Shown here: positions 11,447-32,170 of the stretch, in pieces
Layout: every line of letters starts with the position of its first letter
How positions within the stretch are numbered: position 1 is the stretch's first letter
DNA from: Candidatus Vogelbacteria bacterium RIFOXYD1_FULL_51_18
GTDB taxonomy: Bacteria; Patescibacteriota; Minisyncoccia; Phycocordibacterales; UBA9988
Direction of reading: 5' to 3'
Assembly (NCBI GenBank): GCA_001823095.1
Contig: MHTL01000013.1
Location: 1-33,005 of the forward strand
DNA: 33,005 nt
Notes under the pieces: model-generated
What the model was told of the DNA's origin: nothing
The model's input: only the letters and a program-made list of their open reading frames with translations
The model's database searches: none
Position numbers and translations under genes: made by a program

Positions 11447-12172
11447 ATGTTCCAGACATTTATTTCAGAACCTCTCTATAATGCGCTGGTCTTTATTACC
11501 GGTATGCTCCCCGGAAATAATATCGGTCTCTCTATCATCATTCTTACCATCCTAATAAAGGTTCTCCTCATCCCACTGCAGAATCGAGCGCTTACCACAC
11601 AGCGGGAAATAAAAAAAATAGAGCCGGAATTGAAGAGAATAAAGAAAGAGTGCGCAGGAAATAAGGAGCTTGAGGCTCGGAAGGTTATGGGGCTCTACCG
11701 GGAGCATAACGTCAATCCCTTTGCGGGGTTTGCGGTCATTTTAATCCAAATCCCAATCTTTATAGGGCTTTTTCTGGTATTCCGCGAGGGGTTAGAATCT
11801 GTGCGCTTTACCTTGTATCCTTTTGTACAGGTGCCCTCACATGTAAATCCTATCTTTTTTGGAGTTGACCTGGGGATGAGGAGTATTGTGTTTGCGGTAG
11901 GAATTGCAATTACCCAGTTTATCCAAACGTACATCTCCATTCCTCCCCCCTCACCCCGCGAGAACAATTCCTCCTTTGCTGATGATTTTAGCAGGAGTCT
12001 TAGCTTCCAAATGAAATACATCATGCCAATTGTCCTTGGAGTTGTGTCGGCAGGGCTCCCGGCGGCTGTTTCGGTCTATTGGCTTACGAGCACAGTCTTT
12101 TCAATTATATATGAATTGTGGTACCGTCGTTTACACCCGTCCGGCGGGTTACAGGTCAGTCAGGCGAAGTGA
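11447..12172 (+). CDS. yidC: YidC/Oxa1-family membrane protein insertase
   Basis: Inserts and folds membrane proteins, alone or with Sec. The 241-residue form is the short, Gram-positive-like type without the periplasmic P1 domain. Visible are hydrophobic segments at about 12-45, 92-112, 140-165 and 193-225, a charged hairpin (REIKKIEPELKRIKKE) and the motif NPFAGFAVILIQIPIFIGLF, close to the family NP...G.LP.L.Q.P.F..L. The C-terminus PSGGLQVSQAK runs 24 bases into the 3' end of a convergent gene. There is no jag/khpB gene next to it, unlike many Firmicutes. A leading lipobox is absent. Confidence 0.93.
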   Translation: MFQTFISEPLYNALVFITGMLPGNNIGLSIIILTILIKVLLIPLQNRALTTQREIKKIEPELKRIKKECAGNKELEARKVMGLYREHNVNPFAGFAVILIQIPIFIGLFLVFREGLESVRFTLYPFVQVPSHVNPIFFGVDLGMRSIVFAVGIAITQFIQTYISIPPPSPRENNSSFADDFSRSLSFQMKYIMPIVLGVVSAGLPAAVSVYWLTSTVFSIIYELWYRRLHPSGGLQVSQAK

Positions 12173-13390
12173 CCACAAAGTCTGCGAAGATTTCTCAATG
12201 TAGAAGAGCAGAGTCTCTCCTGAATCAAGGTTCAAAGAGAGCGCTTCTCCACGGGTGCCGCCAGCAAGCCTGGGGTTCCAAAGGATATCACTTTCTCCTG
12301 TTTTTACGTTAAACTTCCATATTTTTGTCTCTGTGGAGACTTCCCCACGGTACCAACTGTCGGGGAATTCTGCAGTAGGGAGCGCGTCGGGGACAGAACA
12401 ATAGAGAGTGTTTGCAATCTTTTTTGACCACATACATGAGGTGGGGGGCACTTGGAATGAGAGGGGAGTTATGTCTCCCGTTTTGATTGTATACAAGAAG
12501 AGATTGAACCCGCTCTTGTCTCTACTCTCCGCAAAGACAAATTGTGAAGCATTTGGATGTATTAGCGCAGTGAGCCCCGGGATATTGCCCATAGCTCGTG
12601 TAGATGCCCCGGTCTGGCTATTGATGAGCAAGAGGACGCCTCGTGCCTGTGAAGAACCCTTCGTTTCCAGCGCAAGAGTGCCCTCTGACGGCCAGGAAAC
12701 ATTCCATTCGTTAAGTGGTGAACGGAAGAGCTCCCGCTTCTTCCCAGAGGCAAAATCAGTGATGTAGAGAATACCCCCCATCTTCCCTCTTACCACGGTG
12801 GCGTAACGGTCTTTTTTGGGGGAGAGCGCGATACTTACAATAGAGTCGCTTATAAATGTCCCAACCTCCACATTTGTGCTTGCAGTGACGCTCTTTTTGA
12901 TTGTTTGGATATACGTCTGGGCTCCAGAGTTCCCCTCATAGCGGGAGATAATATAGTAGTTGCTTTTTGTCTCTCCTACATACGCTTCTTGTATGCCCAC
13001 CATAGTGCTATTAGAGAGTTTATCAACGGTGCCGCTTGCGATATTCATGCGGTACACATGGCCAGTACTCTTATCAACAGCGACGACGGTCGTGCTTGTA
13101 GCTCCGCCAAAGATACCGAACCCGGCAATGGGGTTTGATGCGAGCTCCCATGCCCGCACACCACCCCCGGTTGAAATAACACCAAGGGTGCTGGTCGCCG
13201 TACTTGTTCCCACCACTGTCTCTCCTAACCCCTCCCCTATTGGGAAAAGCGGCTCCGTTGACGTGGCTATTATTGGTTCAGCCGGCTCGGCAGGCTCATA
13301 GAAGAGGGTGTACCAAATAAGCCCTCCTCCTACAGAGAGAAGGATAACGATGACGGCTCCGAATGTGATTTTAGTGATTAGTGAAGACAT
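12149..13390 (-). CDS. Membrane-anchored beta-propeller-like protein, last gene of the T4SS operon
   Basis: 413 residues with an N-terminal membrane segment (about 8-29) then a Pro/Ala/Thr-rich linker (EPAEPAEPIIATSTEP) and a C-terminal part of repeated beta-strand blades resembling TolB/WD40-type propellers: VVAVDKSTGHVYRMNIASG, IALSPKKDRYATVVRG, LLLINSQTGASTRAMG, ALIHPNASQFVFAESRD. It is probably a surface or wall-facing protein. The start 13390 abuts the pilin-peptidase gene (stop 13392), so it ends the T4SS operon. Partner or structural role in the secretion apparatus is inferred from position only. I see no catalytic motif. Confidence 0.75.
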   Translation of the reverse strand: MSSLITKITFGAVIVILLSVGGGLIWYTLFYEPAEPAEPIIATSTEPLFPIGEGLGETVVGTSTATSTLGVISTGGGVRAWELASNPIAGFGIFGGATSTTVVAVDKSTGHVYRMNIASGTVDKLSNSTMVGIQEAYVGETKSNYYIISRYEGNSGAQTYIQTIKKSVTASTNVEVGTFISDSIVSIALSPKKDRYATVVRGKMGGILYITDFASGKKRELFRSPLNEWNVSWPSEGTLALETKGSSQARGVLLLINSQTGASTRAMGNIPGLTALIHPNASQFVFAESRDKSGFNLFLYTIKTGDITPLSFQVPPTSCMWSKKIANTLYCSVPDALPTAEFPDSWYRGEVSTETKIWKFNVKTGESDILWNPRLAGGTRGEALSLNLDSGETLLFYIEKSSQTLWSLRLTDL

Positions 13391-13391
13391 G

Positions 13392-14627
13392 TTAATTTTT
13401 TGGGCAGACGCCGGTGCTTACATGGAGATGGTTGCCTTCATCAAGAACATATGCCCCAGGGTCGCACTTTCGCGCCGCGGCCGACAAAACTTTTTTATTC
13501 CACTCGTCGCCAAAGTCCACCGCCATTGAACCGTTTGACCCGGTACCTCCTCCATAGTGGCACGAGTTGCGGCTGTGCGCGCAATTACTACTAGAGTTTG
13601 CTCCGTTGCATTCATCCAATTTGCCAATATGCCCGGAGTCGCTGATGGAGGAAATCTGCCCGATACTCGTATCCGGTATTTCTTGCCGCATACAAGAGAG
13701 TAATGTTTTTAATGAGTGAGACATGTCACCGGCTTGCCTTTCAATGCCTCCCTGGTAGCGCCATGTTCCAGCATCAGCTGTTCCGGAACCTTCATTACTG
13801 CAGAGAGGATATCCTTGGACATTCCGAGTAACGGATTCCGAGTTCACACAATCCCCGGTGCCCGTTTGGTAAGCATTTCTTGCTGAGGAGCACTCTTCAT
13901 TTGTTGTGTATGGACCTTTGTAGCATATTTGTCCTTCTTTATTTAAGATAAAGTAATAACGTTGGTTCTCCGTGTCTATTTTCCCGTAACATCCAAACCC
14001 AGTACGGAAGACTCTGTACTCGCAGTTATGAGGCTCTATCTCTCTGTATCCATTTTGAGGATTCTTGAAACTACCTATCCACTGACAGTCTAGATAGCCG
14101 TTTTCAGAACACTTACCCCACTCATCTTTTGGTTGTTCTTCAGACTGATCTTTTTCCCTATCCTCGTGCTCCAAATCACGTGTCCCACCGGGGCCATAGA
14201 GACCCTCACGGATTGCTGTCGGATTTGCTGATAGCTTGCCAATATCTAAATTAAGCGTTTCAGTCGAGACCAAGTCTGGATTCACCGTCTGGAGAATAAG
14301 GAAAGCGGAAACAGCGAGGAGGAGGCCAAAGACGGCATTGGTAATGCGCTCTTTGCCCTGCTCCTTGCCGCTCCCGGAAAATGAGGAGATGTACTCAATG
14401 CCGCCCCACACAATCATGAGTACTGCAAGCGCTGCGGCAATGGCAATAAAGGTGGTAAAAAGTGTGCTCATATACTCCCCAAACTGCACCCGAGCCCCCT
14501 CTGTTTTATTGACAACACTCGGCTCAAGGAGAATCACACCGCTCCCTGTTGGATCTGCCGCGAGCACGAGAGGTACTCCGGTGAGGAGAATAATACTTGC
14601 GGCAAATAGAGGGAGCATTCTTTTCAT
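13392..14627 (-). CDS. VirB2-like pilin fused to a Cys-rich predicted M15-type zinc peptidase domain
   Basis: The 411-residue protein has a signal peptide (about 1-23), two hydrophobic segments (about 55-77 and 98-115) separated by a short loop, as in T4SS pilins of the VirB2/TrbC type, then an acidic linker (EDREKDQSEEQPKDE), a Cys-rich region (about 173-280) and a C-terminal domain. That domain carries SCHYGG (H357), SMAVDFG (D371) and DEGNHLHVS (E397, H400, H402), which match the SxHxxGxAxD ... ExxHxH metal-site layout of M15-like D,D-carboxypeptidases, with an insertion of about seven residues between H and D. So it may be a pilin that carries a murein-cutting or protein-cutting tip. Activity is not proven; a non-enzymatic zinc domain is possible. 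Confidence 0.72.
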   Translation of the reverse strand: MKRMLPLFAASIILLTGVPLVLAADPTGSGVILLEPSVVNKTEGARVQFGEYMSTLFTTFIAIAAALAVLMIVWGGIEYISSFSGSGKEQGKERITNAVFGLLLAVSAFLILQTVNPDLVSTETLNLDIGKLSANPTAIREGLYGPGGTRDLEHEDREKDQSEEQPKDEWGKCSENGYLDCQWIGSFKNPQNGYREIEPHNCEYRVFRTGFGCYGKIDTENQRYYFILNKEGQICYKGPYTTNEECSSARNAYQTGTGDCVNSESVTRNVQGYPLCSNEGSGTADAGTWRYQGGIERQAGDMSHSLKTLLSCMRQEIPDTSIGQISSISDSGHIGKLDECNGANSSSNCAHSRNSCHYGGGTGSNGSMAVDFGDEWNKKVLSAAARKCDPGAYVLDEGNHLHVSTGVCPKN

Positions 14628-14631
14628 AGTA

Positions 14632-15633
14632 TTAAAATTGCGATGCAGAATTCCCTAAATTAACTGATCCTGACCACGCGGCGCTCTGAAGGAGATTGCT
14701 TGGGTGTGTAGCCGTCACCGAAATGCGCGCTGTTCCCGCGGCGCCCCCCTTGCGCAGGGTCACCAACGAGTTCCCCTCCGGTTCTGTGGGGAGTAGCTTG
14801 CCATTTAGGGACCACATGAGTGTTGTAGGATTTGTCCCGTCTGTCGCGAGAGAAAAGTAATAGGCGGCAGCGCGCACACCCATTTCGTCGCTTAGAAGGG
14901 AGAATGAAGTCCCCAAAGCTTTATTATAAAGGGTTCCCAAAAGCGCGGGGGCTGGATAGAGCACGACGCGAGGATTGCTCACGAGGATACCCATGCTCCT
15001 ACTGGCTGAAATGGTCCCGTCAGAGGAGCTGACCGTTACGGTTATGTGGTTCTCATTAAAAAGCTTTGCGCTGGTAAAGGTGAAAGATTGTTTTCCCAGT
15101 CCGGAGACGCTCCCGATATTCTTGCCGTCCTTGCTCCATTTGTAGATGAGTTTGCTGGGAGCTATCCGCGTGCCACCTGCTGTTGTAAGCTCTGGAAGTG
15201 CGACAACAGTGACGATACTCTCTGATGTGGCCAGACTATGTCCACGGTAAAATGGCTGGGTGTATACTCGCGCCTCCCAGAGAAGGTCAATAAGAGAAGG
15301 AGTTACCGTGATGCTCTTTTGGTAGCGGGCACCTTCCACGCTGGCTACAGAAAGTGAAATATATGTGGCTGCGCCCGATCGGCTTGTCTCAAGCATATAA
15401 TTTTTTTCCGCGGGGCCCCTTAATACCTCCTTCCCACCTACACTCCAAATAAAGACGGCCTGGTTGCTGTCAAAAGAGCGTCCAGACGCGGTAATCGTTA
15501 CTGACTCCCCAGGGCCTGGGAATTCTGGTGATACGGAAATAATGATTGCATCATCACCGCGTATGCTCGCGCCCTGCACTGCGAAAGGGAAGGTGAGAAT
15601 TATAAGCAGTAGAGAAAAGTTTCGCGCCCGCAT
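14632..15633 (-). CDS. Secreted Ig-like-repeat protein of the T4SS operon
   Basis: 333 residues: signal peptide (about 4-22, LLLIILTFPFAVQGA) and several immunoglobulin-like beta-sandwich segments, e.g. SVSPEFPGPGESVTITASGRSF near the N-terminus, FIWSVGGKEV, LIYKWSKDGKNIG, and a third unit around 235-330. It lacks a C-terminal anchor or sortase motif. Beside the pilin and channel genes it may form part of the surface structure or an adhesin. No family name is recognised. It abuts the small membrane protein upstream (2-base gap) and the pilin gene downstream (4-base gap). Confidence 0.75.
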   Translation of the reverse strand: MRARNFSLLLIILTFPFAVQGASIRGDDAIIISVSPEFPGPGESVTITASGRSFDSNQAVFIWSVGGKEVLRGPAEKNYMLETSRSGAATYISLSVASVEGARYQKSITVTPSLIDLLWEARVYTQPFYRGHSLATSESIVTVVALPELTTAGGTRIAPSKLIYKWSKDGKNIGSVSGLGKQSFTFTSAKLFNENHITVTVSSSDGTISASRSMGILVSNPRVVLYPAPALLGTLYNKALGTSFSLLSDEMGVRAAAYYFSLATDGTNPTTLMWSLNGKLLPTEPEGNSLVTLRKGGAAGTARISVTATHPSNLLQSAAWSGSVNLGNSASQF

Positions 15634-15635
15634 AC

Positions 15636-15965
15636 CTATAGTGTAGCATGCGCCCGCGACCTGTCCTCAATCCGCGAGAGGACAATAATAGAGAGAACGT
15701 AAAGTGTCCACATAGGAAGTATGGAAACAAAGGGAATCATCTCAATAACGCTGCTGACAAATGCCGACGCAAGCTTGCGGGAGCCAAAGACGCTCACACT
15801 GTGCGTTGCAAACACAAAGTAGGCCGTAAGCCATACAAAAATGCCAATGACAGGATTAAGGACAAAGCCAACACCGATGAGGTTGCTAAAGGCTTGAAGT
15901 GTTTCAGCAAGGAGAGTCCCGCAGATGAGGAGGGTGGCGGTGATAGAATTAATTCGATGCTTCAT
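15636..15965 (-). CDS. Small integral membrane protein of the T4SS operon
   Basis: 109 residues with about three hydrophobic segments (8-25, 34-53 and 70-94) and a short polar C-terminus (SRIEDRSRAHATL). Its first 17 bases overlap the 3' end of the VirB4 gene, so translation is likely coupled. No recognised family. Position suggests an accessory component of the secretion channel, similar in size to VirB3-like proteins, but I cannot align it to them with confidence. Confidence 0.7.
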   Translation of the reverse strand: MKHRINSITATLLICGTLLAETLQAFSNLIGVGFVLNPVIGIFVWLTAYFVFATHSVSVFGSRKLASAFVSSVIEMIPFVSILPMWTLYVLSIIVLSRIEDRSRAHATL

Positions 15966-17787
15966 GCTGACGCAGTTCTTCTTTTGCCTTTTTGATGGCG
16001 AGGAGCTGGGATGGGTCGGAGGTGATAATCTGGTCCTCCGTGTACGAGGCGATAATCTTTATTGCCACATGCTTGAGCCCCGCAAAGAAGATTCCCTCCC
16101 CCACCGCAGATTCCAACAAGAGGTACTTTTCCTCGTCGGTGAGGTTGAAGGTTTGTTGGACCACGTCTATGGACGCCGGGGACTGTTTGAGGAGCATCTG
16201 GATGGACGAGTTGGTAATCATAGGGAGCCCGTAAGGAGACTTGAGAAAGTCGCCCACATCCTGGGTAATAGTAGCAAGCCCCAGGTAGTACTTTCTGCCG
16301 CGCTTGGCGAGCGAGAAGAGGAAGGACGCCGTATCCTCCGCCTTCATCATCCACCACGCCTCGTCCACCACCAGCACGCGCTTTTTAAGTGTTCGGCGCA
16401 CCACATTCCAGATGTGGTGCATGATGATGTACATGGCGACTGGCTTGAGCTCATCCTCCATGTCGCGGATGGAGAAAACGACAAACTTCTTGTTAATGTC
16501 CACGTTGGTCGGCTGATTGAGAAAGCCCGACCAGGTGCCTTGCGTGTACTTATTGAGGCGCTGGGCCAGCGACTCGCCTCCCTGCATCCCCGCGAGCACC
16601 AAATTAAGGTCAGAAAGCAGAGGGGCGGGCTTGCCCGTAAAGTCGGTGTCGGGGGTGATGTCTTTGAGCGCGTAAGTCTCGGTAATAGCCGAGTCAATAA
16701 TGGAGTCCTCCTCCGGCGTGAGACCGCCGAGCATGATGCGAAAAAGCCCCACGAGGTTGATAATGTTGGAGCGCAGGACATCGGCAGGAGCCTCGTCCTC
16801 GCGGGGGAAGGGCAGGTCAAAGGGATTAATGTGGTGCTCGGAAGTCAGCGAAATGTTGAAGTAGCGCCCGCCCGCCGCTTCCGACATGTACTCATACTCG
16901 CGTTCGGGGTCAATCACAATGACATCAACATCAAACATGAGACTGCGCAGGATTTCCAGCTTGGTGGCATAGGACTTGCCTGCCCCCGACTTGGCAAAGG
17001 TGACCGAGTTGTAATTTTCCATAGAGAAGCGGTCAAACATCACCAGCGAGGCGTTGTGGCGGTTGATGCCATAGAGAATGCCGCGATTGCTGGTAAGGTC
17101 AAAGGAGGTGAAGGGGAAGAGCGAGGAGAGCGGTGAGGAATTGAGTTTTGAGTGCACAGAGAGGAGGTCCATACCAAGCGGCAGGGTGCTCTTCCAGCCG
17201 TCTTCCTGCTGGAAGACGGCTGGCTTAACGTAGACAAGCTTGGACTCCAACATATTCTTCACCTCGCTCTCGGTCTTGTTAAGCTCCTCTTCACTCTCGC
17301 CGTAGAAGGTGAGGTACAGTCCGACATCAAACATCTTTTCGCGCGATTGCTGGAGCTGGTCCCGCAGAAATTCAATGTCTTGGTAGGCGGTGTCCAGTTT
17401 TGGGTCGCGCACCACCCCCCGCTCCTCGCGCACCGCAATCTGGCTCTGCACCTCGGCAACTTTCTTTTGCAGGCCACGCAGAACCATGGACGTATCAATG
17501 GGGTGAACGTAGATGGAAATGTCAAAAACGCGGTCAAGATTGATGATGGGCATGAACCAGTTTTTGGAAAGCTGGCGCGGGTAGGAAATGACAAAGAATG
17601 TCCGCGCGTACTTGCCGCCGATGTTGATGAAGTTGGGACTGACCTGGAGCGCCGCAGGCGCAATGACGTCCTTGAGGGACAATTGATTCCCATCGTAAAA
17701 GTTGTGCGGGATGACCGGCACTGAATTTTCTTTTTCCGCCCGCCCGCCCGCCTTGCGGAATAGAGCTTTTTTCTTAAACAGCTTCAT
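15949..17787 (-). CDS. VirB4/TraC-family T4SS ATPase
   Basis: VirB4 ATPases energise pilus assembly and substrate transport. The ORF-track protein starts at 18072, but MKLFKKKALFRKAGG at 17787 is the likely start: upstream codons read the preceding gene's DNA in another frame and look non-protein. This gives 612 residues with Walker A KSGAGKS (266-272), Walker B VLVVDEAW (471-478), and the QDVGDFLKSPYG and MLLKQSP segments common in the family. The ATG overlaps the TraC-like gene by 14 bases. It is the central ATPase of the operon, followed by a 17-base overlap with the small membrane protein. Confidence 0.9.
   Translation of the reverse strand: MKLFKKKALFRKAGGRAEKENSVPVIPHNFYDGNQLSLKDVIAPAALQVSPNFINIGGKYARTFFVISYPRQLSKNWFMPIINLDRVFDISIYVHPIDTSMVLRGLQKKVAEVQSQIAVREERGVVRDPKLDTAYQDIEFLRDQLQQSREKMFDVGLYLTFYGESEEELNKTESEVKNMLESKLVYVKPAVFQQEDGWKSTLPLGMDLLSVHSKLNSSPLSSLFPFTSFDLTSNRGILYGINRHNASLVMFDRFSMENYNSVTFAKSGAGKSYATKLEILRSLMFDVDVIVIDPEREYEYMSEAAGGRYFNISLTSEHHINPFDLPFPREDEAPADVLRSNIINLVGLFRIMLGGLTPEEDSIIDSAITETYALKDITPDTDFTGKPAPLLSDLNLVLAGMQGGESLAQRLNKYTQGTWSGFLNQPTNVDINKKFVVFSIRDMEDELKPVAMYIIMHHIWNVVRRTLKKRVLVVDEAWWMMKAEDTASFLFSLAKRGRKYYLGLATITQDVGDFLKSPYGLPMITNSSIQMLLKQSPASIDVVQQTFNLTDEEKYLLLESAVGEGIFFAGLKHVAIKIIASYTEDQIITSDPSQLLAIKKAKEELRQHEASN
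17194..17223. repeat. Perfect 13-bp hairpin inside the VirB4 gene
   Basis: CCAGCCGTCTTCC, a four-base loop (tgct) and GGAAGACGGCTGG form a perfect inverted repeat. It encodes PAVFQQEDGW, so the protein is uninterrupted. It could be an mRNA structure controlling downstream expression, or coincidence of codon choice. Confidence 0.45.
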
Positions 17788-18439
17788 TGTTGGTATAGCT
17801 CCCCTCTTGTGGCGCATCCTTCTCTCCGGGGTTAAAAAGTTTGTAATAAAGCTCAACCAACTCTTCTGTCCCCAATATAACAGAGCGCACACCGAGCGAG
17901 GCGAGGCTCTGCGCGACAACGTATGAGCGCTGTTCAAGCTGACTCCTGTGTTTCTCAAACGAATCTGCCGCCGCGGATTCCATCTCGGTTTTTTTTGACC
18001 TTCCTCCGAAGAGTTTTCCAAACACTCCGCGCTGTATCTCCACAATCGGGGGGCTGTACGGCACAACAACAAAAAAAGACTTAGACATGACGTTGGTGCT
18101 CTCGGTGAAATTTTTCACAAAGTCCAGGTACTCCTTGGTCTGTATTTTTACCAAATCATTCGTTTGCTCCTTCATGCGATCTTCAAGGATGCGGAGGTAG
18201 GGCTGGATGTCCAGGCGCCGTGATTGGATAAAGAACTCTACATGAAAGTCTAGGGCATTGACGAAGTTTTGGAATTGAATCAGGAGCGCCATCTGCTCAT
18301 CTTGTGACTTGAGCGCAAAGTTCAGCGAAGAGGCCATGAGCACCATGCGCATCCCGCCGTCAACGAGCACCACAACGCTGTCGCGGATTTCGCGGATGGG
18401 AAGGAAGGATTGTGATGCGCTTGCGTTTTGTAATGCCAT
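17774..18439 (-). CDS. TraC-like T4SS accessory protein
   Basis: I chose the ATG at 18439 (MALQNASASQSFLPIREIRDSVVVLVDGG) over the ORF-track ATG at 18487, because the earlier start runs into the PrgI gene and this one lies next to its stop (18441). The 221-residue protein is soluble, with a helical middle (FVNALDFHVEFFIQSRRLDIQPYLRILEDRMKEQ) and VMSKSFFVVVPYSPP. In Gram-positive-like T4SS loci of CPR genomes a protein of this size lies between PrgI and VirB4 and resembles the N-terminal part of TraC/VirB4 proteins. Assignment rests mainly on position and size. Overlaps VirB4 by 14 bases. Confidence 0.75.
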   Translation of the reverse strand: MALQNASASQSFLPIREIRDSVVVLVDGGMRMVLMASSLNFALKSQDEQMALLIQFQNFVNALDFHVEFFIQSRRLDIQPYLRILEDRMKEQTNDLVKIQTKEYLDFVKNFTESTNVMSKSFFVVVPYSPPIVEIQRGVFGKLFGGRSKKTEMESAAADSFEKHRSQLEQRSYVVAQSLASLGVRSVILGTEELVELYYKLFNPGEKDAPQEGSYTNNEAV

Positions 18440-18440
18440 A

Positions 18441-18869
18441 TTATTCCTTGCCGCTCTCGCCTGTATGAACATCAAGACTCCATGCAATATCGTTCAGTCT
18501 TCCGGTGCGCGAGCTGGCTGCTTCTAAGGGGTTTTTTTGCGCAGAAGGGAGACGTACCGTTGCAGAGCCGATTGGCGGCTCGTCCTTTTTCCACCGGTAG
18601 AGCTTGCCGCGGAGCGCGTACTGGATAGCGGCCTGCATGGTATAGACTAAGGGGCGCTCGTTTATTTTATAAAATGCAAGCGCAAGACCAAAGCCCGCAA
18701 AGGGGACAGCAAGCGCCGTTGCGATGACGCCCGGCAGAAATTGGGAGAGAATCGTGTAACAGATGAAAGCCGCTCCCGCTCCCCCGGCCACATAGACAAA
18801 CTGTTTGAATGTGAGCGGGCCGAATATCTTGTCTTCTATCTCAATAAATTGTGGTACTTGGAAATCCAT
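18441..18869 (-). CDS. PrgI-family T4SS membrane protein
   Basis: PrgI proteins are small inner-membrane components of Gram-positive type IV secretion systems, thought to act like VirB3. The 142-residue protein starts MDFQVPQFIEIEDKIFGPLTFKQFVYVAGG, the typical family opening, has two hydrophobic segments (about 26-44 and 46-66), then INERPLVYTMQAAIQYALRGKLYRWKK. The tail from about 105 onward is polar and without clear homology. Encoded directly before the TraC-like and VirB4 genes, as in known PrgI loci. Confidence 0.85.
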   Translation of the reverse strand: MDFQVPQFIEIEDKIFGPLTFKQFVYVAGGAGAAFICYTILSQFLPGVIATALAVPFAGFGLALAFYKINERPLVYTMQAAIQYALRGKLYRWKKDEPPIGSATVRLPSAQKNPLEAASSRTGRLNDIAWSLDVHTGESGKE

Positions 18870-18872
18870 TGT

Positions 18873-19403
18873 TTATTGTGGCGCTTCCCGATACGGGTCT
18901 ACCTCTGCCTTGCGGGGCGGCAGAGTCTCTGGCTCCGGTTTTTGCGCAACTGCTGGCTGCGGCGGTTCAGCCTCTAAAGTCGGACTCGCCGCGGCGAGTC
19001 CGACTTCCTCACCCGTCGCTTCCTTTACGGGTCCGACTTCGGGACTCTTGTTTGAATATGTAATGAGCGGATTTGCTCCGCGCAAGTCGTGCACACGCTC
19101 CAGACTCGCCCGGACCTTAAGGAAGATACTCCCGTTGATGTCGCGGTAGATTGAATTTCCCACAGTGAGGTCGCCCCCCAGGGCGAGCGCGATATTTTTT
19201 GGCATCTCGTTAAGCGCGTGGACGCCGAGTATGGTAAGCCCGATTTCCCCTGCAAGTTCTCCCATTTGGTCTATAGAGAGACCATAATTTTTGGCAATTT
19301 TGCGGACCGTTGCCGAGGTCTCGGCTGATCCCATTGCATCTTGAAGATCCTCGGGGAGCGAGTTGTATATTTCTCGGAGCTGATCTTGGGTAAGTGTGTT
19401 CAT
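18873..19403 (-). CDS. Conserved-looking hypothetical protein of the T4SS operon
   Basis: 176 residues, cytosolic. The N-terminal ~105 residues look like a compact helical domain (LTQDQLREIYNSLPEDLQDAMGSAETSATVRKIAKNYGLSIDQMGELAGEIGLTILGVHALNEMP), and the C-terminus is Pro/Glu/Ala-rich and low complexity. In the linker lies EVGLAAASPTLE, encoded by a perfect 30-base palindrome, and shortly before it a related SPEVGPV copy, so the tail has likely grown by repeat insertion. It lies between the VirB6-like gene (16-base gap) and PrgI (3-base gap). I did not recognise a family; it may be a regulator or chaperone of the apparatus. Confidence 0.7.
   Translation of the reverse strand: MNTLTQDQLREIYNSLPEDLQDAMGSAETSATVRKIAKNYGLSIDQMGELAGEIGLTILGVHALNEMPKNIALALGGDLTVGNSIYRDINGSIFLKVRASLERVHDLRGANPLITYSNKSPEVGPVKEATGEEVGLAAASPTLEAEPPQPAVAQKPEPETLPPRKAEVDPYREAPQ
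18977..19006. repeat. Perfect 30-base palindrome coding for EVGLAAASPT
   Basis: AAGTCGGACTCGCCG is followed directly by its reverse complement CGGCGAGTCCGACTT. It shares the core AAGTCGGACT/AGTCCGACTT with the repeats in the DUF192 gene at 25.6 kb, and a further half-copy (GTCCGACTTC) lies about 24 bases on. In frame it encodes EVGLAAASPT. Confidence 0.75.
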
Positions 19404-19419: not shown

Positions 19420-21390
19420 TTACTTTTTTATCCCGAACAAAGTTCTCAACTTCGGGTTGCTCTGTACTTCAAGCACGATGGCGCTGTCCGGGTTGCCGGA
19501 CTCATGTCGCTGTAATCCTTTCCGCATTTTTACTCTCGCATCCTCGGTCAACTTTGCCTTGCCAGCCAAATCAACAAGATCAAGCGGGTTCATGTGCGCA
19601 TAGAGGGTATCAATATCTGCCTCATCAGCATCCTCAATAATTTTCTGCAATTTGCGTCCCTCGTCATCTTTAAGTCCTTTAACCACCTTTTCAATGCGCT
19701 CCTTCCGTCCAAGAGAACCCTTCTTGAGCCCCTCTAGTTTCTTATCTGGGTTGCCCACAATCGCTTCAATGTCGGCAGACTGTTCTTTTTTGCGCGCGGC
19801 ATCCTTGCCTTCAACCCCAGCTTTTTCCACCTTCTCAAGCTGTTCCGGAGTCAGGCGTTCCTGTTGCCTCCTTACCCTCTCTGCCGTCTGCCCACCGTAG
19901 GTCTTTGCTGCCTCAAAGGTTTCGGCCTTCTCGCGTTCAGAGAGACTGTCGTAGTAGGCCTTCTGCGCAGCCGCACCCATAGTCCCCATTGCCTGTGCGC
20001 GCGCAAACGGATCTCTGATGCCCTTTGCGCGTTCAGTTTGGCGCTTCACGATATCGCTATAACTCTTGGTCCCGCCGTACTTTGCCTCGGCAGTCTTATC
20101 CCCAAACGCCTTCAGCGGCACTCCTACAACCTTCCCCCGCATCCCCTTTCCGCCTGCAGAGGCGCTCTTGATCCAATCACTGTCCCCCAGCGTCCTGCCC
20201 ATCCTCCCGATGGTGTGACGTCCCGCCACTCCCGTAGCCTGCCCTCGTGCCCAATCAAGGCCGCCGAGAACCTTTTCTTGAACAGCCTCTGCTCCTATGG
20301 AACTCATCTTCTTTGCCTGCACAAGTCCAAAGATGATGAGGGTGATATAGATGCTGTATTTTACAAAGGCAGACATAAGGATTGAAGTTCCAGATTTTGA
20401 AGATGCCGCTTCAAACACCCCAGCACTGCCCTGAATGAGCACCAGAGTAAGAAAGACAAAGAAGAGATAGATTGGCGCAAAGAATGCCTGACCTATAAGC
20501 GCCGCCCACCAAGATTTCAACATCTGCCGCAGCTGGGGAATAATCATTCCCATAAATGCAAGTGGAGACAAGATAATAAGTATCATCAGGAGTGCGGTGC
20601 GAATGAACATAAGTACGGCCGCCACGATAAAGCCCCACGCAGTAATCATAATGAATACTGCTGAACCGATACCCGCAACCATAATTGCAGCTAAACCGGA
20701 CCCTGCTTCGTAAATGGTTTCTGTGCTCGGCTCATCTTCTTGTGCCCATTCGTTCAGTTTGAGCGCATGCATGTAGCGGGCGGCAATCCTCTTCGCACTG
20801 CTTTGCTCTGCAGTGCAGGGGTCGGAGACGGTTCTCCCAACAATGCTGGAATAGAATTGGTACGCAAATACGTTTGACACATCAATCACAAAACGCGTGA
20901 ATACCGCGCTGAAATTAATGAGAAGCGCAATGATAATAACCCATACAATAAGTTTTTTTTGGTCATTGCCAATATTTAAAATGATGCTGATGGCAATGTA
21001 GAGGAGAATGAATATGAAAAAGAAGTTTGCCACATTGCGCGCGATAGTCCACCCATTTGTAACAACGTCGGTATGGGTATACTGCGCGAGGTCGCAGACG
21101 TTGGTCCGCACAGAATAATCAAGCAGCTGTCCCCCAAGCCAGAGGAATCCTCCCGATATCCAAATGAGGAGGTTGGCAAACGTAGTGGCAATCCATTTTG
21201 TCCAATCACCAAAAAGCCACTCAAGGACTCCCTTCCCCCCTGTATATGATCCTGTAGCTGATTGATTTTCGTTAGAAATGGGAAGTGGTGCGCCTCCTTG
21301 AGCGTGTATTACTTGGATAACACCAAAAAATAAAATGAAAATCGTTACAAGTGAGAGAATTCCGGCAATGGTTCGTGAATATTGCCTCAT
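19420..21390 (-). CDS. VirB6/TrbL-like polytopic T4SS channel protein
   Basis: VirB6-type proteins form the inner-membrane channel of type IV secretion systems. The 656-residue protein has an N-terminal signal-like segment, several further membrane segments (about 64-90, 119-140, 147-170 and 225-290, plus others to about 370), and a long charged, helical C-terminal part (about 390-656) rich in Glu, Lys and Arg. The segment VLMFIRTALLMILIILSPLAFMGMIIPQL is typical of TrbL/VirB6-like membrane cores. The ATG overlaps the upstream stop (ATGA, 21387-21390). The long soluble tail goes beyond the usual VirB6 length. Confidence 0.8.
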   Translation of the reverse strand: MRQYSRTIAGILSLVTIFILFFGVIQVIHAQGGAPLPISNENQSATGSYTGGKGVLEWLFGDWTKWIATTFANLLIWISGGFLWLGGQLLDYSVRTNVCDLAQYTHTDVVTNGWTIARNVANFFFIFILLYIAISIILNIGNDQKKLIVWVIIIALLINFSAVFTRFVIDVSNVFAYQFYSSIVGRTVSDPCTAEQSSAKRIAARYMHALKLNEWAQEDEPSTETIYEAGSGLAAIMVAGIGSAVFIMITAWGFIVAAVLMFIRTALLMILIILSPLAFMGMIIPQLRQMLKSWWAALIGQAFFAPIYLFFVFLTLVLIQGSAGVFEAASSKSGTSILMSAFVKYSIYITLIIFGLVQAKKMSSIGAEAVQEKVLGGLDWARGQATGVAGRHTIGRMGRTLGDSDWIKSASAGGKGMRGKVVGVPLKAFGDKTAEAKYGGTKSYSDIVKRQTERAKGIRDPFARAQAMGTMGAAAQKAYYDSLSEREKAETFEAAKTYGGQTAERVRRQQERLTPEQLEKVEKAGVEGKDAARKKEQSADIEAIVGNPDKKLEGLKKGSLGRKERIEKVVKGLKDDEGRKLQKIIEDADEADIDTLYAHMNPLDLVDLAGKAKLTEDARVKMRKGLQRHESGNPDSAIVLEVQSNPKLRTLFGIKK

Positions 21391-23525
21391 CGTGTTGCGG
21401 TTACATCCATCATCACCTCGCCCTTTTGGTTTTCGCAGAGAAGTTTATAGACCGGCTTTGCGGTAATGGTGATTTTTTTTGCGTTGATGTCAAAATTAAA
21501 ATCATAACGCTGAAGCAGTATGCGATTTGGATCAAGTACATTTTCTACACTACGGGTATATGCCTCAAGCAGGGCTCGCATAAGATCCTCTGGCTTGTTG
21601 AAACTGGTAAAACTTACCTTTCTCCAGTCCGTTGTCGTCAGTGTTGCAGAACCGACCGTGAGTGTATAGTCGCCCGCCCATGTGTTGAGAAAGCCACTGA
21701 AGTCAATAATCGTTCTCTGCGAGATGAGCTTTTCATCTGCCGCACTCACCACCTTCCCGCTTGCCCAATTAGGGATATCGGGACTGCGGGTAATTGTGAC
21801 GGGGAAGGTGTACGGATGCTCTATCGTAAGCGTGCCGCTTGTTTGGATGTTTGCATTGCGCGCCTTAATAATTTTATCCGCGCTTAGCCAGTCATTGATC
21901 GCAGTGCACTTGCTTGCATTGAGCGCTGTCCACGAGAGCTTAGTAGTGTTGCGATCTGCACGAGCAAGCTCCATGGGTGTTGTATTTGCGGTAAAGGCAA
22001 CTGAAGGAGGTACGGTGAGGTAGTCTTTCACCCCATCACCATTAGCATCCCCGTTGAGCCATTCAGTGACCTGTCTGATAATTTCTTCTTGCGATCCTTG
22101 CTGGTTGAGTATGTTCCGTAATTCTGGTGGTAACAACGCAAGCGCGCCGGGGAGGTTGCGATTGTTGTAGAGCTGTTGGGCTAAACTCCCCAGGTTTGGG
22201 AGGCCCGTACCTCTTTCCCCGGGGGGCAGGTTGCCCCCGCTGAAGATATCTCCCTCCCGTGTCCATCCGGAATCTACACAAGGTCCGGGACCTGGGCAAG
22301 GATCTTCTTCTTTTTGGAAAACACTCTGTACTGCAACAGTATCCTGCGTTTTTCCGATTTTTTCTATATTGGTCAGCTCGCTCTCTACCCGCGCAAATTC
22401 ATCTTTGCTGAAGTCCTCAATGGATTGGTCAGCAAGCTCATTCTGCCGCAAGGTTGAGCCCACAATGTCGGAGAGGTAGCTCTGGTTGATGGAAGCCGGC
22501 GTCTTAACCACCCACTTTCTGCAGTATTTTTTGCCATCAGTGGTTGTTACCCAATTCTCGTTGGCGCATTCACGCACGGGGAGGAACCCTTTTGCCGAGG
22601 ATATCTCCTCACGCGCATTCCCTTCAGCGCGCGATTCACGCAACGCCAATTCATCCTGCGCGAGCAGGCGCGAGCCTGGGTAATTATTCCGTGGGTCAAT
22701 GAGTTTAAGCCATGCATCCCAACCGCCCTGTGAGAAATCGCTGGTGAAAGCGTTAAATTCGTCCCTTGTCATTGTTGAGCCAAGAGTAGTTTGCACACGC
22801 GCCTGGTCGCTGTCCCCTGCCGCTCTCTGGAGCGCAAGGTCTCTGCGGATGCCCTCACTGAAAATATTTGGATTCTGCGAATTGCTCAAATCAGCGTCAA
22901 AAATTCCGTACGCCTCATCACGCACATTCTGCAGGTGCTCGTCTATGTTGCTTACGTAGAGTGGCTGTTTGTTCTCCGAACTCCCTGCCACCCCTCCTGC
23001 CGCACCTTGTACATTCAGGAGCCCCGGAGAAACTTCGTAGCCCTTCTTGATATTTTCTTCTATGAAGGTTTGTTTGTGTTCAAAAATTGCTTTTGCCGCC
23101 GCCTTGCGGGCATTAGGGTCGTGGTAGAGAACTTGCGCTTCTATCTGGTACTGCACGCGCCGTACGGCCTTTAAGTGCATGCAGATGTCTACGAGGAGGT
23201 CGTTAGCGTGCACTGTTTTGCGGTTAATACCCTCGGTGAGCGAGAGGAGCTCCCCCGTCTCATGTACCGGCACATAGTCTCCACCACTCCCGCCGTTACT
23301 CTCTGTTTGCCCGGTTTCTGACACACACTCTAGGCGGTCATTCTGCTCTCTGTTGGCAATGATGTCCTGCGCGGCCTGTTCCTGCGGGCCGAATTCAAAT
23401 CCTTCCCGCGTATTGACAGCGCTTGCCCTCTGCTCCTGTGCCTGCGCGTATGCGCCCACAGTCAGAATGGCTAGCGCAAGCGTCAGTGCAATCGTGATGT
23501 GTGTGGATAGGAAACGTTCTCTCAT
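21387..23525 (-). CDS. Large exported protein of the T4SS operon with calcium-loop and Ig-like segments
   Basis: The 712-residue product has an N-terminal signal peptide or anchor (about 8-30, ITIALTLALAILTVGAYAQA), a helical region (VHANDLLVDICMHLKAVRRVQYQIEAQVLYH), an Asp-rich loop DANGDGVKD near 500 that resembles an EF-hand/dockerin-type calcium site, and a following Ig-like stretch (VAFTANTTPMELARADRNTTKLSWTA). No known T4SS family is recognised; VirB5-, TrbJ- or surface-scaffold-like roles are possible. It overlaps the DxDxDG protein upstream and the VirB6-like gene downstream by 4 bases each (ATGA), so the three are translationally coupled. Confidence 0.75.
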   Translation of the reverse strand: MRERFLSTHITIALTLALAILTVGAYAQAQEQRASAVNTREGFEFGPQEQAAQDIIANREQNDRLECVSETGQTESNGGSGGDYVPVHETGELLSLTEGINRKTVHANDLLVDICMHLKAVRRVQYQIEAQVLYHDPNARKAAAKAIFEHKQTFIEENIKKGYEVSPGLLNVQGAAGGVAGSSENKQPLYVSNIDEHLQNVRDEAYGIFDADLSNSQNPNIFSEGIRRDLALQRAAGDSDQARVQTTLGSTMTRDEFNAFTSDFSQGGWDAWLKLIDPRNNYPGSRLLAQDELALRESRAEGNAREEISSAKGFLPVRECANENWVTTTDGKKYCRKWVVKTPASINQSYLSDIVGSTLRQNELADQSIEDFSKDEFARVESELTNIEKIGKTQDTVAVQSVFQKEEDPCPGPGPCVDSGWTREGDIFSGGNLPPGERGTGLPNLGSLAQQLYNNRNLPGALALLPPELRNILNQQGSQEEIIRQVTEWLNGDANGDGVKDYLTVPPSVAFTANTTPMELARADRNTTKLSWTALNASKCTAINDWLSADKIIKARNANIQTSGTLTIEHPYTFPVTITRSPDIPNWASGKVVSAADEKLISQRTIIDFSGFLNTWAGDYTLTVGSATLTTTDWRKVSFTSFNKPEDLMRALLEAYTRSVENVLDPNRILLQRYDFNFDINAKKITITAKPVYKLLCENQKGEVMMDVTATR

Positions 23526-28395: not shown

Positions 28396-28779
28396 ATGCC
28401 AGAGTCCCTCTCTCCCGAATCGGTCCCCGCAGAGCTCTTGGAAATCTCCCGCGCCATTGAATCGCGCCGAGGCGCTTTGGAGAGTGAGCACGGCATCATA
28501 GAGGAGAAGCGCATTGTCCATCACGTGATCGGCGAGGAGCTCTTTGAGAAATCTACCTCTACTCTTGCCGTGCCGCCACCGGGGAGTCACTACCTTGATT
28601 CCCTGGACAATGAGTCTCTTACTGCGCTCAACAGTTATATTGCTCGCATTTCCGAGTTGGGGCTCAAAAAAACGCTTGTGCTCGTGCGGAAAGAGAACCC
28701 CTTCCTCATAGATGCCTTCCATGATGCGCTTACCGACAAGCTCTATGGTGAGCTGAAACAGCATGGTCTTATCAGCTAG
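28396..28779 (+). CDS. Small hypothetical protein upstream of the VirD4-like gene
   Basis: 127 residues, soluble and acidic: MPESLSPESVPAELLEISRAIESRRGALESEHGIIEEKR, then HHVIGEELF and DSLDNESLTALNSYIARISELGLKKTLVLVRKENPF. No family recognised. It overlaps the VirD4-like gene by 17 bases, so both are translated together; it may be a chaperone or adaptor for the coupling ATPase. Its ATG lies 7 bases from TATACT. Confidence 0.7.
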   Translation: MPESLSPESVPAELLEISRAIESRRGALESEHGIIEEKRIVHHVIGEELFEKSTSTLAVPPPGSHYLDSLDNESLTALNSYIARISELGLKKTLVLVRKENPFLIDAFHDALTDKLYGELKQHGLIS

Positions 28780-31132
28780 CACGCTTTTTATTATCGGTGG
28801 CGGTATAGCGATTCTTGCACTTGCTGTCGCCCTCGTGCTCCTCTTTGGGTGGCTGCGGGGCTCTCGTCCCACGACACTCTCGTACGTGCTCCTCTCTATT
28901 TTAGTGCCTCGCGCCGGAGACACTGACGCCGAGCAGGTAATCCGCGACATTGCCCTCTCAGAGCAGCTTTTTTCTGCGCTCTCATCCATCGGCAAGCCGG
29001 TTGTTTTCGAAGTCTCGGTGCACTCAATAGGCGAAGAAATCCATTTTTACCTCTCTGTCCCGCGAGAAAGCGAGCGCTTTGCCGGCGACCAGGTTCGCGG
29101 TCTCTACCCGAAGGCGCAGGTCTCCCGGGTTAAAGATTATAACGTGTTCAATCCGCACGGAGTCGCAATAGCGGGGCACCTCTCTCTCAAGGAACCCTTT
29201 GCCCTCCCTATCCGTAGCTACCGTGAAGCTTCACTAGACACCTTTGCGCCCATTGTGAGCACTCTCTCCCACCTTGAGGCAATCGGAGATGGGGCGTCAC
29301 TGCAGTTTATTTTCCGGCCGGAGGAAGCGGCAATAAAGAAGCGACTGCTCGGAGCCATCGGAGAAGTTAAGAAAGGCGTCTCGCTTACTGATGCGATAAA
29401 AGGCGTCGGCTTTGGGCTCAAAGAGATTCATGCCGAGCTCACAGCAAAGCCGAAAAAGGCCGGACAAGAGGCGCCGCAGGCGCCGGTGGATGCTGAAGCA
29501 GTGGCAAGTCTTGAACGCAAGGCGGCAAGCCCGCTCCTCTCGGTTGTGGTGCGCATCATTACCTCATCCGAGAGCGAGGACAGGGCGCTTGACCTCTTTA
29601 ATGCAATTGCCGGCTCTTTTTCTCAATTTGCAAGTCCTAAGCGCAACGGCTTTGTAGCCGTCCGTCCCCGGGACAGCCAGGCGCTCCTCTATCGGTATGC
29701 CTTCAGGGAATGGAATGGTCGCGAGAGCATGACTTTAAACGCAGAGGAGCTGGCGAGCATCTTCCACCTCCCCACTGCCGCTCTGGATGTGCCGCGCCTA
29801 AGCTGGCTCTCTACCCGCGAGACGGCTCCTCCTCCCGCACTCCCCGATGAGGGAATTGCAATTGGAGAGAGTATCTTCCGCGGAGACCGGCGCACGGTGC
29901 GCCTGCTTCCGCCTGACCGTCTCCGCCACGTCTACACTATCGGGCAGACCGGCACCGGCAAGAGTTCGCTCCTCTTCACTATGGCGGCGCAGGATATTGA
30001 ACGGGGCGGGGGGCTTGCCGTTATTGACCCGCACGGAGACTTAGTCAACGATCTCCTCTCGGTGGTGCCGAAAGAGCGCATCAATGACGTGATCGTTTTT
30101 GACCCTGGAGACCTTACTCGGCCCTTGGGGCTCAATATGCTGGAACATAATAGCGCACGGCCGGAAGAAAAATCCTTTATTGTCTCCGAACTTCAGTCCA
30201 TCTTCAACCGGCTCTTTACCGCAGAGACGATGGGGCCGATGTTTGAGCAGTACATGAGGAATGCCTTGCTGCTCCTTATGGAGGACATAGAGGCAGAACC
30301 GGCAACACTCATTGAAGTGCCGCGTGTCTTTACCGACCCGGAATTCAGAAAAAGGAAGCTCTCCCGCATCAACAATCCCGTGGTGATTGATTTTTGGGAA
30401 AAGGAGGCGGTCAAAACTTCCGGTGAGCAAGGACTCGCCAACATGACTCCCTATATTACCTCCAAGTTCAACAACTTTATTGCCAATGACTACATCCGGC
30501 CGATTATCGGCCAACCAAGCTCCTCGTTTAATTTTCGAGAGGTAATGGATACAAAAAAAATACTTCTCGTGAATTTGTCCAAAGGCACAATCGGAGAGCT
30601 CAATGCAAGCCTCATCGGCATGATGGTCACTGGACGCATACTCCTTGCGGCGCTCTCACGGGCCGATAAACCACAAGAGGAGCGCACGGACTTCCACCTC
30701 TACATTGACGAGTTCCAAAACTTCAGCACTGACTCAATTGCAGTGATTCTCTCCGAGGCGCGCAAGTATCACCTCTCGCTCACCCTCGCGCATCAGTTCA
30801 TTGCCCAGCTCACCGAAAACATTAAGAGCGCCGTCTTCGGGAACGTGGGGACGCTTGCTATTTTCCGGGTGGGAGCCGACGACGCCAAATATTTGGAGAC
30901 AGCCGTATCACCCAACTTTACGATTCATGATCTGGTAGGCATTGAGAACCGTAATGCCGTGCTCAAGATGCTCTTGCGTGGAGAACCGGTGCCGGCCTTC
31001 AACATACATACTCTTGATGTGAAGCGCGGCTCCCGGGAAATTACTGAAAAGCTCAAGGAGCTCTCGCGACTTACTTACGGGAGAGACAGGGGGGAGCTTG
31101 AGGCGGATATACTCAAGCGTCTCCGGATGTGA
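28763..31132 (+). CDS. VirD4/TraG-like type IV coupling ATPase
   Basis: Coupling proteins recruit substrates to the T4SS and help pump them. The 789-residue protein has one N-terminal membrane segment (about 7-30), a large N-terminal domain (about 40-370) unlike the classical VirD4 all-alpha domain arrangement, Walker A GQTGTGKS (394-401), an acidic patch LAVIDPHGDLVND after it, and Walker B-type FHLYIDEFQNF (about 645-653), with the TraM-recognition-like C-terminal region. It lies on the opposite strand from the T4SS operon, separated by uvrD-rsmA. Followed in the same frame, after TGA, by the M23 gene. Confidence 0.88.
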   Translation: MVLSASTLFIIGGGIAILALAVALVLLFGWLRGSRPTTLSYVLLSILVPRAGDTDAEQVIRDIALSEQLFSALSSIGKPVVFEVSVHSIGEEIHFYLSVPRESERFAGDQVRGLYPKAQVSRVKDYNVFNPHGVAIAGHLSLKEPFALPIRSYREASLDTFAPIVSTLSHLEAIGDGASLQFIFRPEEAAIKKRLLGAIGEVKKGVSLTDAIKGVGFGLKEIHAELTAKPKKAGQEAPQAPVDAEAVASLERKAASPLLSVVVRIITSSESEDRALDLFNAIAGSFSQFASPKRNGFVAVRPRDSQALLYRYAFREWNGRESMTLNAEELASIFHLPTAALDVPRLSWLSTRETAPPPALPDEGIAIGESIFRGDRRTVRLLPPDRLRHVYTIGQTGTGKSSLLFTMAAQDIERGGGLAVIDPHGDLVNDLLSVVPKERINDVIVFDPGDLTRPLGLNMLEHNSARPEEKSFIVSELQSIFNRLFTAETMGPMFEQYMRNALLLLMEDIEAEPATLIEVPRVFTDPEFRKRKLSRINNPVVIDFWEKEAVKTSGEQGLANMTPYITSKFNNFIANDYIRPIIGQPSSSFNFREVMDTKKILLVNLSKGTIGELNASLIGMMVTGRILLAALSRADKPQEERTDFHLYIDEFQNFSTDSIAVILSEARKYHLSLTLAHQFIAQLTENIKSAVFGNVGTLAIFRVGADDAKYLETAVSPNFTIHDLVGIENRNAVLKMLLRGEPVPAFNIHTLDVKRGSREITEKLKELSRLTYGRDRGELEADILKRLRM

Positions 31133-31147: not shown

Positions 31148-32170
31148 ATTCTCTATAGACATAAAAAACTAACAGGGCTCCTCTTTATACTGTTTTTTGC
31201 CCTAAGCTTCACGTTCGGCAAGCCGGTAAGCGCTAATTTCCTCTCCCTTATCAAGGAGCAATTTAAACGAGGGAGTCCCCAAGAGGCCGCAATGTCGCGC
31301 TTTGTGAGCTCGCAAACCATCTCTCTCATGGAGCCCTCACCCAACCCTAATCCTCCGGCACGGGGAGGCGGAGACACCGCAATTGTGGGCAATGCGCTCC
31401 TTGTTAATGCAGGCCCTTTGGGCGCCGCCACGGATATTACAAGCACGCCGCTCTCTGACCAGATTAGTCTCTATGTGGTACGCAATGGAGATACTCTAAG
31501 TCAAATTGCGCAGATGTTCGGAGTATCGGTGAACACTATTGTGTGGGCAAACGACCTTCCCAGAAGCGCTAAAGTCAGTAAGGGTCAGACTCTCGTCATT
31601 TTGCCGGTTTCCGGTATCCAACATACAGTGCTTAAGGGGGATACTGTTCAAAAAATAGCAAAACGCTACGGAGCAGATAGTGAGGAAATAGCGCAGTTTA
31701 ACGGCATTGATGAGAATCATCCGCTCATTGCCGGACAGATTATTCTTGTTCCTGATGGAGAATCTGCACCGGCGCCGGGCCGCATCGCGCAAAAACCTCG
31801 AGGCACGTCGAAAAGAGAAGTTTCTTCCGGCTACTATATCAAGCCAGTGGCGAAAGCGATCAAAACGCAGGGTATACACGGATATAACGGTGTTGATCTT
31901 GCGGCGCCTTTAGGAACTCCCATCGTTGCTGCAGCTGATGGGCAGGTAATCGTAAGCCGTTCCGAGGGCTGGAATGGCGGCTACGGCAAGTACATTGTCA
32001 TAAAACACAACAACGGCGCACAGACGCTCTATGCGCATAATAAGGAAAATGCGGTCTCGCAGGGAGATTGGGTCAAACAGGGGGATGTCATCGGCGCTGT
32101 GGGCAATACCGGCCGCTCAACCGGCTACCACGTCCACTTTGAAGTCCGCGGGGCAAAAAATCCATTTTAA
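31148..32170 (+). CDS. Exported LysM-M23 peptidoglycan peptidase, start uncertain
   Basis: M23 enzymes cut peptide cross-links in peptidoglycan. The frame has two LysM wall-binding modules ([27 protein letters not shown] and [27 protein letters not shown]) and an M23 domain ([47 protein letters not shown]: zinc ligands H and D in HGYNGVD, H in HVH). The ORF-track ATG at 31292 would remove an obvious signal peptide, [26 protein letters not shown], encoded in frame upstream. No ATG, GTG or TTG lies in that frame after the VirD4 stop; ATT at 31148 is the most plausible start, but a one-base sequencing error near ATG 31137 or a frameshift are alternatives. I therefore give 31148 tentatively; the safe minimum is 31292-32170. 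Confidence 0.75.

Follow-up and report, generated by a model that had tools for sequence, protein, structure and literature searches.

A T4SS-locus pilin with a predicted LAS-type peptidase domain and exchangeable C-terminal modules among its relatives in Patescibacteria

Patescibacteria are frequently found attached to other microbes. Their type IV secretion system (T4SS) proved indispensable for an epibiotic lifestyle in the one species tested (PMC10633639, PMC12857230), and a 2025 survey reported that most Patescibacteria genomes with VirB2-like pilins lack VirB1, from which VirB1 was inferred not to be needed (PMC12102498). The locus described here, where a pilin gene of a T4SS operon continues into a domain resembling M15 peptidases, raises the question of whether the wall-opening component that these T4SSs seem to lack may be a module borne by the pilin itself.

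The pilin fusion and its T4SS operon

The window, that is, the whole stretch of DNA analyzed (33,005 nucleotides), is an entire contig of a 634 kb genome. The open reading frame (ORF) at 13392..14627 on the minus strand, intact at the coordinates given in the preliminary description, encodes a protein of 411 aa that we annotate as a fusion of a pilin and a LAS-type peptidase; homologues with the pilin and the C-terminal domain in a single ORF exist as well. A signal-peptide-like hydrophobic N-terminus (residues 1-23; 14559..14627, minus strand) precedes a two-helix T4SS_pilin domain (PF18895) at residues 51-114 (14286..14477, minus strand), which was identified by hmmscan with an E-value of 4.4e-10 and 39.9 bits, over the curated cut-off of 26.6, and was found at the same place in a search of the whole genome; PF04956 (TrbC/VirB2) produced a weak match (E 0.32). 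Hydropathy windows delineate hydrophobic segments at residues 3-27, about 52-83 and about 94-120, so that the signal-like N-terminus and the two hydrophobic helices of the T4SS_pilin family are present, and the gene lies with virB4 and other T4SS genes in one operon, as in 70 of the 78 related loci. In length, the fusion exceeds the short, pilin-only format of the family. The profile match and the predicted helices uphold the VirB2-like pilin region initially proposed for this protein, as the cysteines do the Cys-rich segment placed after it, all 14 of them lying past residue 172.

Eight of these cysteines belong to a predicted extracytoplasmic linker at residues 115-286 (13770..14285, minus strand), for which Pfam yielded a weak DUF6436 match alone. 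A charge comparison across 93 fused pilins, in which the inter-helix loop was the more positive and the stretch following helix 2 the less positive in 58 cases, agrees weakly with a cytoplasmic location of the loop. We infer a topology in which the linker and the C-terminal domain are outside the cell.

The genes around the fusion follow a conserved order, orf176-PrgI-TrsD-VirB4-TM-Ig-PILIN-propeller-(YidC)-dnaA. In the window, all on the minus strand, these are a conserved T4SS-locus protein of 176 aa with no assigned function (18873..19403; homologues in 36 of 78 loci), a PrgI/VirB3 homologue (18441..18869; PF12666, E 1.2e-12), a TrsD-like homologue of the VirB4 N-terminal part (17774..18487; NF045975, E 6.1e-10 to that part), the start of which overlaps PrgI and which corresponds to a gene of 205-240 aa at this position in relatives, the VirB4/TraC ATPase (15949..18072; P-loop_TraG 5.2e-24, TraC_F_IV; VirB4 in 70 of 78 loci), a small membrane protein of 109 aa (15636..15965; 31 of 78 loci), a secreted Ig/PKD-like protein of 333 aa directly upstream of the fusion (14632..15633; weak Ig/PKD matches, 71 of 78 loci) and, next downstream in the same operon, a membrane-anchored beta-propeller-like protein of 413 aa (12149..13390; weak PQQ/TolB matches, 72 of 78 loci). 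The VirB4 ORF opens at a TTG and the VirB4 proteins of its neighbours are about 605 aa long; the real start is probably near 17770. Beyond the propeller gene lie a YidC/60KD_IMP insertase on the plus strand (11447..12172; PF02096, 3.9e-40), a conserved neighbour in 65 of 78 loci, as well as DnaA and DnaN; T4SS genes near dnaA have been described in some Patescibacteria (PMC12102498).

Upstream of the T4SS run, two exported or membrane proteins of 656 and 712 aa (19420-21390 and 21387-23525, minus strand), which have no convincing family match, are candidates for VirB6 or surface components. Farther away, a VirD4-like coupling ATPase (28763..31132, plus strand; PF02534, 1.1e-5) adjoins a LysM-M23 peptidase (31292-32170, plus strand), about 17 kb from the fusion pilin, that is a second candidate wall-opening enzyme and weighs against assigning this task to the fusion alone.

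The genome contains five PF18895 places, namely the fusion and, on another contig, a tandem array of four short ORFs; the plain pilins of this genome are about 122-177 aa long. This array looks like the better candidate for the bulk filament, whereas the fusion would be a lone, specialized subunit belonging to the T4SS core. In other genomes, matches to the pilin domain fall within open frames of giant proteins, of 3354, 3090 and 1243 residues (G889:C10:51745, G797:C12:276525 and G666:C1:505966, respectively), and a match over the cut-off in Haloferax volcanii, one of the control genomes, indicates that the pilin family reaches archaea.

The C-terminal domain and the LAS clan

The C-terminal domain (about residues 287-408; 13404..13769) has the layout H357...D371...E397-x2-H400-x-H402, with His357 (13557..13559), Asp371 (13515..13517) and His402 (13422..13424) as predicted metal ligands, Glu397 (13437..13439) as the predicted catalytic base, and His400 (13428..13430) as the first residue of the HxH motif (all on the minus strand). 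A five-row profile of the domain detected relatives in 35 of 384 genomes of the class, and almost every one of these relatives shares its ORF with a pilin domain. When 29 domains were aligned, the residues named beforehand proved conserved, H357, D371, H400 and H402 in 29/29 and E397 in 23/29; four of the five are thus among the six invariant columns of the 143 in the alignment (hypergeometric P about 4e-6), which also contains an extra invariant Cys and a near-invariant CxH. The pattern H-x(6-15)-D-x(10-60)-H-x-H was searched within the C-terminal 130 residues. Of 133 pilin ORFs, 49 contain it, compared with 9 of the 674 non-pilin ORFs that reach 200 aa, a contrast that is inflated because some of the pilin loci were fetched for carrying this very domain; among 109 pilins sampled without selection for the domain, the HxH pattern is present in 18, a second LAS-like pattern in 12, and both in 3.

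Pfam provided no match for the C-terminal domain of the fusion and none to M15 (PF01427) in the entire genome. A phage origin of the domain was considered and dropped, given 0 matches among 50,697 phage records. A second profile match in the same genome (G000:C8:6338-6490, E 4.9e-4) was taken as chance because it falls on the minus strand, within the span of an ORF of the plus strand that resembles cysteine desulfurases.

The AlphaFold2 model based on the 29-domain alignment is a confidently predicted compact fold (pLDDT 86, pTM 0.81) with the element order helix-helix-strand-(ligand loop)-strand-helix-strand-strand. This order is expected of LAS enzymes, in which the Asp belongs to the strand that follows the His loop, and the HxH motif to the last one. 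Sequence searches of solved structures, with the fusion protein and with the five-row profile, returned nothing relevant, and Foldseek comparison of the model to the PDB gave no LAS chain in the top 50 matches, none of which reached an E-value under 0.001; against BFVD, the first rank went to murein endopeptidase K and the third to an Shh-like protein, both non-significant. Because the top 50 PDB matches of this model include no LAS chain, the case for the fold draws on relatives and on several weak lines of evidence that converge.

The lack of a Pfam match, the non-significant structural matches and the H-x13-D spacing, as opposed to the canonical H-x6-D, would suit a different reading, namely, a Cys-rich metal-binding or structural domain that is not LAS and in which the H/D/HxH set is convergent. 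We consider this improbable in view of the LAS-type element order of the model and of what relatives reveal. In L063, a member of the family that lacks the loop insertion, the spacing is the canonical H-x6-D (HYYGEAVD), and the catalytic region gives matches, below the cut-off, to HH_signal (E 0.0024) and to M15_3 (E 0.016). Its model (pLDDT 73) placed hedgehog at rank 1 in the PDB, Ply500 (M15) at 3, VldE at 5, RB49 peptidase at 19, LysECD7 at 23 and LdcB at 24, that is, within the top 24 of 350,542 chains, each with an E-value of 0.05 to 0.8 and hence non-significant. Another relative, L069, reached by the domain profile at E 2.2e-5, has an M15_3 match above the cut-off (5.8e-7), and the profile recovers two of the six known Peptidase_M15_3 domains of the class sample (G381, G402). 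In profile-profile comparison, the window domain shares with two other pilin-borne LAS-like groups a short H..G..D motif only (P 0.002-0.005), whereas a comparison of those groups with one another yields a good alignment (P about 1e-5).

The C-terminal domain thus very probably belongs to the LAS clan (M15/hedgehog), and zinc binding and peptidase activity are predicted from its sequence. The M15-like C-terminus of the preliminary description stands with respect to the ligand layout and the LAS order, but not as a single significant match of the window domain; similarly, the proposed likeness to M15 or hedgehog folds is reflected in the element order and in the ranks of hedgehog and Ply500 for L063, with no structural match reaching significance.

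Exchangeable modules at the pilin slot

Pilin homologues are present in 247 of 297 genomes of the order, and the fusion is one case of a widespread pattern, a T4SS-locus pilin whose C-terminal module is exchangeable, being LAS, SLT, NlpC/P60, 3D or coiled coil in some loci and absent in others. This pattern emerged from 109 distinct pilin ORFs with complete ends, taken from the fetched loci without selection for a C-terminal domain; these are the better-scoring matches of the full-length query and hence not a strictly random sample. With a plain pilin defined as having under 60 aa beyond the pilin domain, 84 carry a C-terminal extension and 25 are plain. About 50 of the 84 extensions are predicted to be wall-hydrolase-like, many by motif only: about 28 LAS (18 and 12 from the two motif groups, which overlap in 3, and one M15_4, assigned by motif and clustering), about 12 lysozyme/SLT, 3-4 NlpC/CHAP and about 6 3D. 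The remaining extensions comprise coiled coils and Cys-rich or low-complexity segments. With Pfam as the sole criterion (E up to 0.01), fewer assignments are supported (SLT 8, NlpC/P60 3, HH_signal 2, 3D 2, M15_4 1), so the estimate that about half are wall hydrolases is partly a matter of judgement.

The order of genes is the same with plain and extended pilins. On a VirB4 tree of 71 loci (FastTree, with many weak branches), the module label changes at least 28 times, and hydrolase vs none 15 times. Taken with the stable gene order, these changes indicate that the pilin core has been kept while the C-terminus was replaced repeatedly. In six loci, the pilin-LAS gene has as its neighbour another extended pilin, the C-terminus of which resembles lysozyme; one of these partners has a Pfam SLT match (E 8.7e-6), and the others have a glutamate and a G-L-[FY]-Q-[IV]-N-like motif only, poor even for that in L072.

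Long coiled-coil C-termini in place of enzymes are found at this slot, for example, in L094, L105, L142, L144 and L147, and this label clusters on the VirB4 tree. A protein of 487 aa (L069/L199; G381:C171) combines an N-terminal VanY-like peptidase, a mid pilin domain and a C-terminal M15_3-like domain, such that two LAS-type domains flank one pilin.

The possibility that plain-pilin loci carry a replacement hydrolase next door was dropped: the gene order is unchanged and, judged from the named genes of the listing, most of them show no extra gene. We therefore do not claim that every T4SS has a hydrolase; with about a quarter of the order's sampled pilins plain and some ending in coiled coils, without an evident substitute nearby, wall-cutting activity does not appear to be universally required. 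Likewise, a whole-genome PF18895 search did not support the presence of a fused pilin somewhere in every genome.

The composition of the slot also bears on whether the LAS fold is enzymatic at all. It could be a receptor-binding or structural module, in the way that animal hedgehog proteins employ this fold for binding, with the pilin displaying an adhesin or ligand, a role hinted at by the hedgehog-type domains that are the nearest structures for L063, by the HH_signal matches in relatives, and by the structural appearance of other modules of the same slot (coiled coils, Cys-rich repeats). The invariance of the predicted metal ligands, with the glutamate in 23 of 29, makes binding as the sole function less likely; furthermore, the slot otherwise often holds predicted hydrolases of unrelated folds, the common factor of which is wall cutting rather than binding. 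We regard this reading as unlikely.

Function of the fusion and comparison with known systems

The fusion is probably a dedicated T4SS-locus pilin with a LAS-type zinc peptidase at its C-terminus, that is, a pilin-anchored peptidoglycan peptidase serving the T4SS, in effect a VirB2-VirB1-like fusion. The VirB1-like reading is favoured because the slot holds several unrelated predicted wall hydrolases and adjoins VirB4, and because VirB1 is reported missing from most genomes with VirB2 (PMC12102498). Peptidoglycan is the presumed substrate, and operon position and domain exchange suggest that the hydrolase serves T4SS assembly. Under this scenario, Sec would export the protein, the two helices would anchor it in the membrane in the manner of a VirB2 pilin, and the Cys-rich linker and the peptidase would face outside; the T4SS would retain the fusion at the channel or incorporate it as a minor subunit, and the peptidase would cleave peptidoglycan stem peptides at that site, performing in cis with the pilin the job of the VirB1/TraG/PrgK hydrolases in other T4SSs.

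Which wall would be cut is a separate issue. The cell encodes its own wall synthase (PBP), and we slightly favour its own wall over that of a partner, a VirB1-like role there being at least as likely as a role at the pilus tip or on a partner. As a partner-directed weapon or tool, the fusion would use the pilin domain as a delivery tag, the T4SS would extrude it as a pilus-tip or surface subunit, and the peptidase would open or remodel the host wall. That modules turn over so often at an orthologous position (28 or more changes, 71 loci) fits adaptation to different hosts but could also reflect relaxed choice among redundant autolysins, and the many loci without a hydrolase imply no housekeeping need. 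Most of the filament could come from the separate plain-pilin array, the fusion being a minor component of it. A further point in favour is that one Saccharibacterium requires its T4SS and pilins for epibiosis (PMC10633639, PMC12857230). Against this reading, bulky domains of 150-290 aa are hard to pack on a helical pilin filament, this genome has no known host, and there is no sign that the fusion leaves the cell surface. On balance, we hold a partner-directed function to be a minority prospect. The related generalization, that the orthologous T4SS pilin of Patescibacteria is a chassis for interchangeable extracytoplasmic wall-cutting modules displayed or delivered at host contact ("evolved pilin" effectors), is similarly tentative; the literature found describes no such class for any T4SS.

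Predicted wall hydrolases on such a large share of the VirB4-locus pilins would directly account for the absence of VirB1. The fusion further provides specific residues for mutation, and its relatives form a natural domain-swap series for comparison with host range or wall chemistry. The open literature searched describes pilin arrays and VirB1 scarcity in Patescibacteria but no pilin-hydrolase fusions; such architectures may nonetheless be catalogued in domain databases, and we make no firm claim to priority.

Each part of the fusion has recognizable counterparts. With the LAS metallopeptidases (M15: Ply500, VldE/LdcB, VanX/VanY, Peptidase_M15_3; hedgehog N-domain), it shares the H...D...HxH layout, the element order and weak profile and structure links, but differs in the insertion that separates the ligand His from the Asp in most of its family, giving H-x13-D in the window, the additional conserved Cys and CxH, the missing Pfam match and the position behind a pilin. 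It resembles the VirB2-like pilins of Patescibacteria (PF18895; PMC12102498) in the signal-like N-terminus, the two helices and the linkage to virB4 and PrgI, but not in its 411 aa with a 290-residue extracytoplasmic extension. The pilin-like protein Mbov_0395/MMCAP2_0565 of mycoplasma conjugative elements (NF045849) matches residues 51-115 weakly (E 7.8e-4, below the curated cut-off), and that 80-position model lacks a peptidase domain. The logic of a partner-directed pilin is comparable to that of the "evolved" Hcp/VgrG/PAAR proteins of T6SS. Finally, like the VirB1-type hydrolases, which include the two-domain TraG/PrgK enzymes of Gram-positive plasmids (PMC12102498), the fusion is a predicted peptidoglycan hydrolase of a T4SS operon, with glycan- and peptide-cutting types at times encoded by neighbouring genes; unlike them, it is covalently part of a pilin and is a predicted LAS peptidase without an SLT or CHAP domain.
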